A DNA stretch of 64,000 bases from Halomonas denitrificans (GTDB taxonomy: Bacteria; Pseudomonadota; Gammaproteobacteria; Xanthomonadales; Wenzhouxiangellaceae): NCBI GenBank assembly GCA_019800895.1, contig JAHVKF010000003.1:868001-932000 (forward strand), in the 5' to 3' direction. Position 1 is the stretch's first letter. Each line of letters opens with the position of its first letter. Of the stretch, positions 708 through 43,303 are shown piece by piece. The notes below the pieces were generated by a model. That model worked only from the letters and a program-made list of their open reading frames with translations. It made no database searches and was not told where the DNA came from. The position numbers and the translations under genes were made by a program.

Positions 708-3700
708 TCACCGGTATACCAACTCCACCGCTTCCACCGCCTCCAGCCCCGCGATCGCCGCAAGCAGCTCGGTGCAGGGCCGGACCCGCCACGCGGCGCC
801 GAGCTTCAGGGTCGCCTCGGCGCGCCCGTTGCCGAACTGCACGATGACCGGAATGTCGCCCGGACGATATGGCCGGAGTGCGGCGGCGAGGTCGTGGTGG
901 ACGCTGTCCGGCGGGGCGTCCGGGCGCAGGCGGAGCTGGACGTGGCGCGCGAAGCGCTCGCGCGCCTGGTCGAGGGTGAAGACCTGCTCGGCGATCATCC
1001 GGTAGCCGCCGTTGAAGTCGTCGATATCGACCTTGCCGCTGACCACCACCACCTCGTCGGCGACCAGCACATCGCCGCTCTCGGACATCACCCGATCGAA
1101 GACCGCCACTTCCATCCGTGCGCTGCCGTCGTCGATCGCCGCGAACACGCCCTTGCCGGGCCGTCGACGCAGCGCCACGACCAGGCCCGCCAGGGTCATC
1201 GGCGTGCCCTGGTTGCGGCCGCGCCGGCGGCCGTCGCCGTTGCTGCCCGGCGGTGGCTGCTGCCCGCCCAGCTTGTCCGCCACGTCGCCGAGCCGGCAGC
1301 TGACGAAGCCGCCGATCTCGTCGGCCAGGTCGTCCATCGGGTGGCCCGTCAGGTAGAGCCCCAGGGTCTCGCGCTCGGCGCGCAGGCGCTGGCGGGCGTT
1401 CCAGGGCCGCACGTCGGGCAGCGGCGGCTCGTCGTCGGGACCGGGCGCATCGCCGCCGCCGGCCCCTCCACCGAACAGGCTGGCCTGGCCGGCGGCCGAA
1501 TCGGCCTGGTGCCGCTCGGCGGCGGCCCAGGCATCGGGCAGCGCCTGCATCAGCGCCGCGCGATTGTCGCTGATGCTCTCCAGCACGCCGGCGCGGATCA
1601 GCGTCTCCATCGTGCGCTTGTTGAGCTTGCCGAGGTCGAGCTCGCGCAGGAGCCCGCCGAGCGACTCGAACGGGCCCGTGCGCTCGCGCACCGCGACGAT
1701 GTTCTCGATCGCGCCCTCGCCGACGCCCTTGACCGCGCCTAGGCCGTAGCGGATCCGGCCGTCCTCGACCTCGAAGCGGTAGACCGAGGCATTGATGTCC
1801 GGCGGCAGGATCTCGAGGCCCATCGCCCGGCAGTCCTCGATCAGGTTGGCCACCTTGTCGGTCTTGTCCATGTCGGCCGACAGCACCGCGGCCATGAACT
1901 CGGCCGGGTAGTGGGCCTTCAGCCAGGCCGTGTGGTACGCGACCAGCGCGTAGGCGACCGAGTGGGACTTGTTGAAGCCGTAGCCGGCGAAGGTCTCGAT
2001 CAGGTCGAAGAGGTGGCCCGCATCGTTGGCGTCGACCCCGTTCTCGGCCGCCCCCGCGCAGAAGATCTCGCGCTGCTTGGCCATCAGGTCGCGGTCCTTC
2101 TTGCCCATCGCGCGGCGCAGCAGGTCGGCGCCGCCGAGCGTGTAGCCGGCCACGACCTGGGCGATCTGCATGACCTGCTCCTGGTACAGGATCACGCCGT
2201 AGGTCGGCGCGAGGATCGGCTCGGTCATCGGGTGCGGGTACTTGACCGTGGCCCGGCCGTGCTTGCGCTCGACGTAGTCGTCGACCATTCCGGCGTCCAG
2301 CGGGCCGGGGCGGAACAGGGCGACGGCGGCGACGATGTCGTCGAAGCTGTCGGGGACCAGCTTGCGGAGCAGGTCCTTCATGCCGCGCGACTCGAGCTGG
2401 AACACCGCCGTGGTGTGCGCCTTCTGCAGCAGGCGGAAGGTCTCGTCGTCTTCCAGCGGCAGCGCTTCGAGGTCGATCGGGTCTTCGCCGGCCTGGCGCC
2501 GCGCGCGGTTCACGGACTTCATCGCCCAGTCGATGATCGTCAGGTTCCTCAGGCCGAGGAAGTCGAACTTCACCAGGCCGACGGCCTCGACGTCGTTCTT
2601 GTCGAACTGGGTCACCACCGAGCCCGAGCGCGGGTCGGTGTAGAGCGGGGTGAAGTCGGTCAGCGGACCGGGCGCGATGACCACGCCCCCGGCGTGCTTG
2701 CCGGCGTTGCGGGCCACTCCTTCGAGCTGCATGGCCAGGTCCAGGATGCTGCGCGTGTCGTCTTCGCGCTCGAAGCGCTGCTTCAGCTCCGGCTCCTGCT
2801 CCAGTGCCTTGGCCAGCGTCATGTTCAGGTCCGGCGGAATGAGCTTGGCGATCGAGTCGACGAAGCCGTAGTTGTAGCCGAGCACCCGGCCGCAGTCGCG
2901 CACCGCCGCCTTGGCGGCCAGCGTGCCGTAGGTGATGATCTGGCTGACCCGGTCGCGGCCGTAATGATCGGCCACGTAGTCGATGACCCGGTCGCGGCCG
3001 GCCACGCAGAAGTCGATGTCGAAGTCGGGCATCGACACGCGCTCGGGGTTCAGGAAGCGCTCGAACAGCAGGTCGTAGCGCAGCGGGTCCGGGTCCGTGA
3101 TGCCGATGCACCAGGCGACCAGCGAGCCGGCGCCGGAACCGCGACCGGGCCCGACCGGCACGTCGTTGTTGCGTGCCCAGGCGATGAAGTCGGCAACGAT
3201 CAGGAAGTAGCCGGAAAACCCCATCTTGATGATGACCGCCAGCTCCCGCTCCACCCGGTCCCGGTAGTCCTGCTCCTCGTAGCCCGGCGCGATGCCGTGG
3301 GTCGCAAGGCGGCGCTCCAGGCCCTCGAAACTCTTGCGGCGCAGGTAGTCGTCGGCCGTGTCGCCGTCCGGCAGCGGGAAGGCGGGCAGGGCGTACTCGC
3401 CCAGGGTCAGCTCGAGGTTCAGGCGCCTGGCCAGCTCGACGGAGTTCTCCAGCGCCACCGGCAGGTCGGCGAAGACCTCGGCCATTGCCTCCGGCGACTT
3501 GAGGCACTGCGCCTCGACGTAGTCGCGCGGCCGGTGCTTGTCGTCGAGCAGCCGGCTCTGATGGATGCACACCCGGGCCTCGTGGGCCAGGTACTCGTCG
3601 GGCTGGGCGAAGCGGACGTCGTTCGTCGCGACCACGGGCACGTCGGCCTCGATCGCCGCGGCCAGCAGCCCGCCCTCGACCTCGCGCTCGCCGGCGCGCC

Positions 3701-41414: not shown

Positions 41415-41499
41415 TGGTGCCGAGGAGAGGACTCGAACCTCCACGGGTTGCCCCACCAGGACCTAAACCTGGCGCGTCTACCAGTTCCGCCACCTCGGC
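41415..41499 (-). tRNA. tRNA-Leu (anticodon UAG)
   Basis: 85-nt class II tRNA with long variable arm. Acceptor GCCGAGG/CCTCGGC, anticodon stem CCAGG/CCTGG around TTTAGGT (anticodon TAG), T-loop TTCGAGT, encoded ACCA. Second gene of the tRNA-Leu transcript. Confidence 0.95.
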
Positions 41500-41609: not shown

Positions 41610-41696
41610 TGGTGCCGAGGGGGAGACTCGAACTCCCACGTCCTAACGGACACTAGCACCTGAAGCTAGCGCGTCTACCAATTCCGCCACCTCGGC
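41610..41696 (-). tRNA. tRNA-Leu (anticodon CAG)
   Basis: 87-nt class II tRNA; acceptor GCCGAGG/CCTCGGC, anticodon stem CTAGC/GCTAG around TTCAGGT (anticodon CAG, reads CUG, likely the main Leu codon in this GC-rich genome), long variable arm, encoded ACCA. First gene after the promoter at 41779-41806. Confidence 0.95.
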
Positions 41697-41705
41697 ATAA
41701 AAGAA

Positions 41706-41771
41706 GTGGCCGAGGCAAGGGGGGAACCTCGGCCACAATCCGGCTCGGGGAAGGGGGGAACCCCAGACCGG
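41706..41771 (-). promoter_or_regulatory. Tandem C-tract hairpins in the tRNA-Leu leader
   Basis: On the transcribed strand two successive hairpins carry the same loop TTCCCCCCTT. The first (41771-41740) has outer arms CCGG/CCGG and inner GGGG/CCCC. The second (41736-41706) has 10-bp arms GTGGCCGAGG/CCTCGGCCAC, which include exact copies of the tRNA-Leu acceptor-stem sequences GCCGAGG and CCTCGGC. The first hairpin begins at the expected 5' end of the transcript, and the leader before the tRNA is almost wholly these two structures. Confidence 0.65.
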
Positions 41772-41778
41772 AGACGAA

Positions 41779-41806
41779 ATTCTAACCCGTCACGCAGTCA
41801 TGTCAA
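41779..41806 (-). promoter_or_regulatory. Strong sigma-70 promoter of the tRNA-Leu operon
   Basis: On the minus strand TTGACA (41806-41801), 16-bp spacer, TAGAAT (41784-41779). Predicted start near 41772. The 440-bp region 41697-42139 otherwise holds only the leader hairpins and, on the other strand, a TATACT (42035-42040) that may serve the acyl-CoA dehydrogenase gene. Confidence 0.85.
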
Positions 41807-42139: not shown

Positions 42140-43303
42140 ATGGATTTCAGATTGACCGAAGAACAGCAGATGATCCAGGCCGCGGCGCACGAGTTCGCCC
42201 AGGAACGGATCGCGCCGGTCGCCGCCGAGTTCGACGAATCGGGGGAATTCCCGCTCGAGAACATCCGGGCGATGGGCGAGCTCGGCCTGATGGGCATCGA
42301 GGTTCCCGAGGCGTACGGCGGCGCCGGACTCGACACGATCGGCTACGCGCTGGCGCTGATGGAGATCTGCGAGGCCGACGCGGCGCACGGCACGATCATG
42401 AGCGTCAACAACTCGCTGTTCTGCAACGGCATCCTGAAGCACGGCACCGAGGACCAGAAGCAGAAGTACGTCCGCGCGGTCGCTACCGGCGAGGCGATCG
42501 GCGCCTACGCGCTGACCGAGCCGCAGTCCGGGTCCGATGCCTCCAACATGAAATCCCGCGCGGTCAAGTCCGACGACGGCAGCCACTACGTGATCGACGC
42601 ACGCAAGTCGTGGATCACGTCCGGCCCGCATGCCGACTACATCGTGCTGTTCGCGATGACCGATCCGGATGCCGGGGCCAAGGGCGTGTCGGCATTCATC
42701 ATCGACACCACCGTCGAGGGTTTCTCCCGCGGCAAGACCGAGCCGAAGCTGGGAATCCGCGCCTCCGCGACCTGCGAGATCGAACTGGACGGCTACAAAT
42801 GTCCGGCCGATTGCCTCTTGGGCAAGGAAGGCGAGGGCTTCAAGATCGCGATGGGCGTGCTCGACGCCGGTCGCATCGGCATCGCGGCGCAGGCCGTCGG
42901 CATTGCCCAGGCCGCGTACAAGGCCAGCCTGGAATGGTCGCGCGACCGCAAGGCCTTCGGTCGCGAGATCGGGAGCTTCCAGATGATCCAGGCGAAGATC
43001 GCCGACATGAAGTGCCGGCTCGAAGCCGCCCGCCTGCTGACCCTGCGAGCCGCCTGGGCGAAGATCCAGTCGCAGGAAACCGGCGCACGCTTCACGGTCG
43101 ATGGATCGATGGCCAAGCTGGTCGCGTCCGAGGCGTGCATGTACATTACCCATCAGGCCGTCCAGATCCACGGCGGCATGGGCTACAGCAAGGAAATGCC
43201 GGTGGAACGCTACTTCCGCGACGCCAAGATCACGGAAATCTACGAGGGCACGAGCGAGATCCAGCGGATGGTCATCGGCCGGCAGGAGACCGGCCTGAGA
43301 TAG
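42140..43303 (+). CDS. Acyl-CoA dehydrogenase (short/medium chain type)
   Basis: FAD enzyme that introduces the alpha,beta double bond into acyl-CoA. 387 residues; MDFRLTEEQQMIQ opening, YALTEPQSGSDASNMKS, RKSWITSGPHADYIVLFA, RKAFGREIGSFQMIQ and the catalytic glutamate in EIYEGTSEIQRMVIGRQ. It resembles butyryl-CoA/AcdA-type enzymes; chain preference cannot be set. I start at MDFRLTEEQ rather than 45 codons upstream because the upstream reading covers promoter-like sequence. gdhB follows after 79 bases. Confidence 0.92.
   Translation: MDFRLTEEQQMIQAAAHEFAQERIAPVAAEFDESGEFPLENIRAMGELGLMGIEVPEAYGGAGLDTIGYALALMEICEADAAHGTIMSVNNSLFCNGILKHGTEDQKQKYVRAVATGEAIGAYALTEPQSGSDASNMKSRAVKSDDGSHYVIDARKSWITSGPHADYIVLFAMTDPDAGAKGVSAFIIDTTVEGFSRGKTEPKLGIRASATCEIELDGYKCPADCLLGKEGEGFKIAMGVLDAGRIGIAAQAVGIAQAAYKASLEWSRDRKAFGREIGSFQMIQAKIADMKCRLEAARLLTLRAAWAKIQSQETGARFTVDGSMAKLVASEACMYITHQAVQIHGGMGYSKEMPVERYFRDAKITEIYEGTSEIQRMVIGRQETGLR

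Follow-up and report, generated by a model that had tools for sequence, protein, structure and literature searches.

A conserved pair of hairpins with C-rich loops, linked to tRNA-Leu(CAG) in Wenzhouxiangellaceae, is probably a small regulatory RNA

C-rich loops are found in several small RNAs (sRNAs) of bacteria, among them RNAIII, the Rsa RNAs, the alphaproteobacterial ar14, and B11 of Mycobacterium, and some of these pair with G-rich sites in mRNAs. PMC3771888 also names the alphaproteobacterial ar7 as a C-rich-loop sRNA, and it describes sX13 of Xanthomonas (Xanthomonadaceae) as an RNA with C-rich apical loops (4C, 4C, and 5C) on stable stems, which act without Hfq on 4G or G-rich motifs near start codons. 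Other sRNAs are tied to the transcripts of stable RNAs. According to PMC8144298, 3'ETS-leuZ of E. coli is a 3' spacer that RNase E releases from a tRNA transcript and that serves as a sponge for other sRNAs, and the sRNAs rrA, rrB, and rrF of the same species are found after the rRNA genes, where the rRNA operons end, and between two terminators.

We analyzed a stretch of 64,000 nucleotides of Halomonas denitrificans (GCA_019800895.1, contig JAHVKF010000003.1, positions 868,001 to 932,000), hereafter called the window, in which two hairpins with identical C-tract loops had been predicted at 41706-41771. Both the coordinates and the description hold, and the hairpins lie on the minus strand. 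In our view they probably constitute a small regulatory RNA of around 70 nt, which would act like sX13 and be released from the transcript of tRNA-Leu(CAG). On the minus strand, the locus consists of a promoter match, the two hairpins, a 9-nt U-rich spacer, and the tRNA gene. The -35 box TTGACA (41801..41806) and the -10 box TAGAAT (41779..41784) are 16 nt apart and match 11 of the 12 consensus positions, making this a strong sigma-70-type site and the single promoter-like one; we assigned it by consensus match alone. The relatives show the same arrangement. TTGAC lies at most 48 nt 5' of the element in all 42 loci examined, and the best -10 box is found at spacing 16 in 25 of the 26 loci that the script could read, including the window, and at spacing 18 in one (6 of 32 loci were unreadable). 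A start 7 nt past the -10 box places the predicted beginning of the transcript at 41772. This is the first base of hairpin 1, as had been proposed, and also the base where the block conserved in relatives begins (query position 39).

Hairpin 1 (41739..41772, minus strand) has one internal loop in its stem and the apical loop UUCCCCCCUU at 41760-41751. Hairpin 2 (41706..41736, minus strand) has 10 pairs plus a closing U-G pair, and the same loop at 41726-41717. It is followed on this strand by the spacer UUCUUUUAU (41697..41705), with 7 T in 9 nt, which resembles a weak terminator tail and would also be the leader removed by RNase P, and then by the tRNA-Leu gene with anticodon CAG and an encoded 3' CCA (41610..41696), whose RNase P site is expected at 41697/41696. 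We saw no second promoter in the 9 nt between hairpin 2 and this tRNA, and a shared transcript is predicted. The hairpins had been described as standing in front of tRNA-Leu genes, in the plural. This is correct for tRNA-Leu(CAG), which follows directly, but the next gene, tRNA-Leu(TAG) (41415..41499, minus strand), lies around 110 nt further on and is probably a separate unit, with its own -10-like box TACAAT seen by eye about 10 nt upstream. On the plus strand, the divergent gene at 42140..43303 encodes a putative acyl-CoA dehydrogenase (named from its sequence). The exact anticodon-arm pattern of tRNA-Leu(CAG) has one match in the window genome (G000). Among 14 genomes tested, 12 have it once each, and it is absent from two genomes of genus g6 (G015 and G022), where the tRNA was found by other searches and must therefore differ in sequence from the pattern. 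These counts fit a single-copy gene, apparently the only one for this tRNA.

The structure of the element is well defined. The 64 kb of the window contain two copies of the ten-mer TTCCCCCCTT, at 41717-41726 and 41751-41760, for a chance expectation of 0.04, and none of 100 shuffles contained two copies. Folding of the 77-nt leader (41773-41697) gives two hairpins and nothing else, with an energy of -41.4 kcal/mol (z -6.5), and none of 200 shuffles was as stable. When leader and tRNA were folded together, there was no mispairing despite the GCCGAGG that they share, and the tRNA folded independently of the hairpins. For the covariation analysis we aligned 32 elements, 30 of them distinct, and omitted L058, which is cut by a contig end. 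Standard pairs fill 94.8% of the cells of this alignment and only 39-56% when it is slid. Changes on both sides were found in 11 of the 20 pairs, amounting to 38 cells against 6.9 in shuffles, none of which reached this value (0 of 500). Helix 2 is paired in 99.7% of cells, with five of its ten pairs compensated, and RNAalifold recovered it unaided. Helix 1 is noisier (89.9% paired, and poorly recovered by RNAalifold), partly because the rows of genera g4 and g5 are misplaced by one column in the alignment. Hence, the conserved feature is the structure, with compensatory changes in both stems, best in stem 2. While the letters of the stems vary, the loops are nearly invariant: a run of five or six C framed by T is present in nearly every row. 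The original prediction had named a lack of loop conservation in close relatives as one result that would refute it, and the loops are conserved. It had also offered four functions for the hairpins, a set that is partly supported. The best supported is a C-tract exposed for pairing with a G-rich partner, given the conserved loops, the compensatory stems, and the analogy with sX13; the other three are weighed below.

To what extent the hairpins depend on the tRNA can be judged from the 40 loci that have a tRNA-Leu(CAG) gene. In 18 of them the two are fused, with the tRNA 3-17 nt past hairpin 2 (six loci in g1, the genus of the window, two in g4, two in g5, and eight in family f8, thus in two families). 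Such very short spacers, together with a hairpin 1 that begins at the predicted +1, are what one would expect if the hairpins served the tRNA only, as a 5' leader whose roles are to shield the transcript and to present the site for RNase P, without any function in trans. This reading is however at odds with the remaining 22 loci, where element and tRNA are apart. In 21 of these, all in g2 and g6, an element with the same loops is located 92-154 nt from the tRNA, measured from the aligned element end, and in the one locus of g3 (G007) the distance is around 950 nt. For 19 of the 21 separate g2 and g6 loci, the script found an intrinsic terminator that lies past the element and before the tRNA (none in L017 and L026, nor in L117), and in those that were printed a -10 box ahead of the tRNA could be seen by eye. 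With its own terminator in most of these loci, the element is in some species a unit separate from its neighbours. Family f8, sampled as 18 stretches from 11 genomes plus L030, adds to this: its 19 loci comprise eight fused to the tRNA, nine of another type beside a zapE-like gene (see below), and two free copies of the two hairpins (L114 and L121), which have a U tract and no tRNA. A function for the tRNA only would also leave unexplained why nearly invariant loops sit on changing stems, and we regard it as quite unlikely. The proposal of an RNase processing guide does not fit for the same reason, since a related genus has the element at a distance from the tRNA and in most loci ended by its own terminator. 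Protection of the 5' end is possible for hairpin 1 but does not account for the loops.

The U-rich tail differs between the two forms. The nine nucleotides after hairpin 2 include 5-8 T in 9 of the 10 fused loci of family f1 (Wenzhouxiangellaceae) by script, against 1-5 in the separate loci of g2 and g6; in the tenth, L014, the script picked the wrong hairpin and the spacer read by eye is ACTCTTTTT. This is as expected if the tail matters only where there is no other downstream terminator. A ten-pair GC-rich stem followed by such a tail, which fades where another terminator is present, might also be a regulated attenuator that sets the amount of tRNA-Leu(CAG), perhaps sensed through the C-loops. 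Yet the loops are equally conserved where element and tRNA are separate and hairpin 2 can have no control over the tRNA, and in the fused loci of f8 the spacer is 3-8 nt and the U tract is short or absent in three (L112, L119, and L118). We therefore find an attenuator unlikely. If the hairpins are an sRNA, its release at these three f8 loci would depend on RNase P alone.

Stem 2 contains, in the window, GCCGAGG and CCTCGGC, which are both strands of the acceptor stem of tRNA-Leu(CAG), as had been pointed out. One might thus have expected the hairpins to mimic this stem and to bind leucyl-tRNA synthetase, RNase P, or another tRNA enzyme. Both strands do recur in the element in 11 of the 40 loci, and at some g6 loci stem and tRNA both read GCCCAGG. 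But the other 29 loci do not have both, including 13 of the 18 fused ones and L006 from the genus of the window, so that the likeness is present in only 5 of the 18 fused loci. The comparison mostly refutes acceptor-stem mimicry, and a minihelix function appears very improbable.

To establish the distribution of the element, we searched for it at several levels. We searched the DNA of 61 genomes, and each of them had a match; among the matches listed, the leader was matched in f1 and in f8 (G043 and G053), and only the tRNA in other families. In four of the five other g1 genomes the match begins no more than two bases from 41772 and extends to the end of the tRNA, and the match of the fifth, L002, reaches further upstream. 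Genus g6 has a separate match over the hairpins, the clearest covering 41772-41706, almost exactly the interval first predicted. The exact two-loop pattern, searched in the genomes of 84,980 species, was found in 22 stretches, which come only from records named Wenzhouxiangella, Wenzhouxiangellaceae, Lysobacteraceae/Lysobacterales, or unplaced Gammaproteobacteria. We then built a covariance model of the element (R1) and ran it on 250 genomes of the order (E <= 0.5). It matched 68 genomes overall, among them 37 of the 43 genomes of f1 and 29 genomes of f8; weak hits in f2 (L127, with one clear hairpin only) and f12 were taken as chance. At E <= 0.05 none of the 368 genomes searched elsewhere in the class had a match, large searches of this kind using stricter filters. 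A search of plasmids gave no match either. The six f1 genomes without a match have at least 100 contigs (as far as listed) or are incomplete, and a loss of the element in them is possible. A more open search with R1 in 12 f1 genomes gave one strong copy each, with extra weak hits in G015.

The neighbours of the element give an indication of its history. A gene that resembles rnr (RNase R; named from its sequence) adjoins it in g3, g4, g5, and all eight tRNA-linked loci of f8. It is divergent in g3, g4, g5, and five of the f8 loci, and downstream in the same direction in L030, L123, and L125. The 12 fused loci of g4, g5, and f8 are all beside this gene, and the six of g1 are beside the acyl-CoA dehydrogenase gene, the conserved divergent neighbour in g1, g2, and g6 by tblastn. 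Since the fused form is found beside rnr in two families, parsimony, applied without a tree, suggests that it may be ancestral. On this reading, g1 retained the fusion beside another neighbour; in g6 and g2, element and tRNA are apart. In L011, tandem units like GGGATAAAGGACGGGTT are located directly before the tRNA-Leu(TAG) gene, just 5' of it at 1772.

The nearest Rfam family outside tRNA is sX13 (RF02232), which matches the element with its C-loops in register (E 0.013), albeit at 23.3 bits, below the gathering score of 50. The element might thus be a true sX13 that was relocated, an ortholog or recent paralog of the RNA linked to polA. Of ten sX13-model loci that were searched, four are also matched by R1, at 20-31 bits, and G000 and G004 show no such RNA downstream of polA. 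More precisely, polA of the window genome is on contig C2 and the element on C3, no sX13 was seen in the 363 nt downstream of this polA, and inspection by eye revealed no C-loop RNA downstream of polA in G000, G004, G008, and G009. A relocation nevertheless seems doubtful: the score is low, the element has two stem-loops, both C-rich, instead of three, its neighbours are different, and G015 and G017 have both RNAs. We thus withhold the label sX13, because the Rfam threshold is not reached, polA is not a neighbour of the element, and two relatives have the element together with an sX13-like RNA linked to polA. With score, location, and number of loops all differing from sX13, we treat the element as a C-loop sRNA family in its own right, linked to tRNA-Leu(CAG). 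It shares with the class of C-rich-loop sRNAs its own promoter (by consensus match), stable stems, and conserved C-rich apical loops.

Other C-loop RNAs came up in the same genomes. The sX13-like RNA downstream of polA was seen in two g6 genomes (G015 and G017), alongside the tRNA-linked element; that of G017 matches Rfam ar14 below threshold (43.0 bits for a cut-off of 58.8). The sX13-like loci L129:1283-1358 (minus strand) and L133:2771-2845 (plus strand) have a further C-loop hairpin just upstream and score below the Rfam cut-offs. In the f8 loci L130 and L131, a sequence with C-rich stretches at around 2635-2835 (minus strand) lies downstream of polA on the opposite strand, with sub-threshold matches to ar14 and anti-hemB. 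A free-standing RNA beside a zapE-like gene (named from its sequence) was observed in 9 of the 19 f8 loci (L108, at around 2640-2785 on the minus strand, and L109, L111, L113, L116, L120, L122, L124, and L126). It has three hairpins with CCCCTTG loops, in which runs of four to seven C precede TT, and the last hairpin is terminator-like with a T-rich tail. This is a second, unannotated family of C-loop sRNAs. Finally, L187 contains at around 1501-1576 (minus strand; G015:C1:2151428-2151503) another RNA of two hairpins with C-rich loops, which ends in a T6 terminator and scores 32.3 bits with R1.

If the element acts through its loops, its targets should have G-rich sites. An 8-nt duplex of the loop with AAGGGGGG has an energy of -14.9 kcal/mol. 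Across 43 f1 genomes, AAGGGGGG occurs 176 times within 14 nt before an ATG, against 123 in the backward control, a mild excess that could come from G-rich ribosome-binding sites alone. A search for AAGGGGG or AAGGGGGG before ATG in G000 and the 43 f1 genomes gave no convincing target. The matches of G000 before plausible starts concern what we take, from sequence features, to be a NuoD-like and a glutamate-synthase-like protein, as well as two proteins with signal-peptide-like starts; among the matches read, none of these candidates recurred across genera. A tract of six G, complementary to the C-loops, was observed as GGG GGG codons at the 3' end of what is presumably dnaG, around 90 nt before a presumed rpoD (e.g., in L200), in 15 of the 26 readable loci. 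Matches were obtained in 39 of 43 genomes, and 30 gave loci, 4 of them unreadable. GGG is otherwise a rare glycine codon there, at 2 of the 54 in the rpoD reading. The tract is absent from G001, of the genus of the window, and G000 and G004 are unreadable at this place. We do not claim it as a target, because it was found post hoc and G001 does not have it.

Based on these results, we propose that the two rigid stems would present the C-rich loops to G-rich stretches, likely at or near the ribosome-binding sites of target mRNAs, and that this pairing would lower translation. In the window, the sRNA would have no gene of its own: one promoter would give a transcript made of sRNA, U-rich spacer, and tRNA-Leu(CAG). 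RNase P forms the 5' ends of tRNAs, and in doing so here it would release the sRNA, as expected from established tRNA maturation and the spacing. Some transcripts may instead stop at hairpin 2, at the terminator-like U-rich tail. With one promoter for both, the sRNA would be coupled to the synthesis of the apparently only tRNA-Leu(CAG) gene. The promoter match, the structure and its covariation, the conserved loops, the distribution, the two forms (fused and separate), and the synteny were all obtained by computation. Beyond this, we infer that the RNA accumulates, that its 3' end is formed by RNase P, and that it would act on mRNAs as sX13 does. A broader proposal is possible, though we hold it only tentatively: there may be a family of C-loop RNAs with a 3' end made by RNase P, in which a single promoter gives one regulator for each molecule of the apparently only CUG-reading tRNA-Leu and a repressor of genes with G-rich ribosome-binding sites tracks tRNA supply and growth rate. 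The coupling would then be the ancestral state of two families, and one genus would have lost it when a terminator and a second promoter came to lie between the two.

If this is true, it would add a new, unannotated sRNA family to a group without described sRNAs, with a regulator that forms part of the 5' leader of a seemingly single tRNA gene. Our literature search, mostly of papers outside subscription, found no description of the element, and no paper in which "Wenzhouxiangella" and "sRNA" occur together. Because sister genera have the fused and the separate form, they offer a natural experiment on the reasons for which the sRNA would be tied to the tRNA. With several C-loop RNAs in the order, beside polA, the zapE-like gene, and tRNA-Leu, the origin of such RNAs and the overlap of their targets can also be studied.

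Among the described systems, RNAIII and the Rsa RNAs, ar7 and ar14, and B11 are at unrelated loci in unrelated lineages, and their Rfam matches to the element are sub-threshold or absent. The sRNAs rrA, rrB, and rrF resemble the arrangement predicted here in being part of a stable-RNA transcript with terminator read-through; they differ in their downstream position, and the passages of PMC8144298 consulted give no description of C-loops in them. 3'ETS-leuZ is a regulatory RNA cut out of a tRNA transcript, as is proposed for the element. It is, however, the 3' part, whereas the element would be the 5' part and has conserved hairpins and a separate-gene form in relatives. The closest likeness is to sX13, which occurs in the same order, has stable stems and C-rich apical loops, and whose Rfam model has, like the element, a U tract at its end together with a last stem that carries a C-rich loop. 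Yet sX13 has three loops and an unstructured 5' part and is always downstream of polA, while the element, which is below the Rfam cut-off, has two loops, is structured from its predicted +1, and is linked to tRNA-Leu(CAG).
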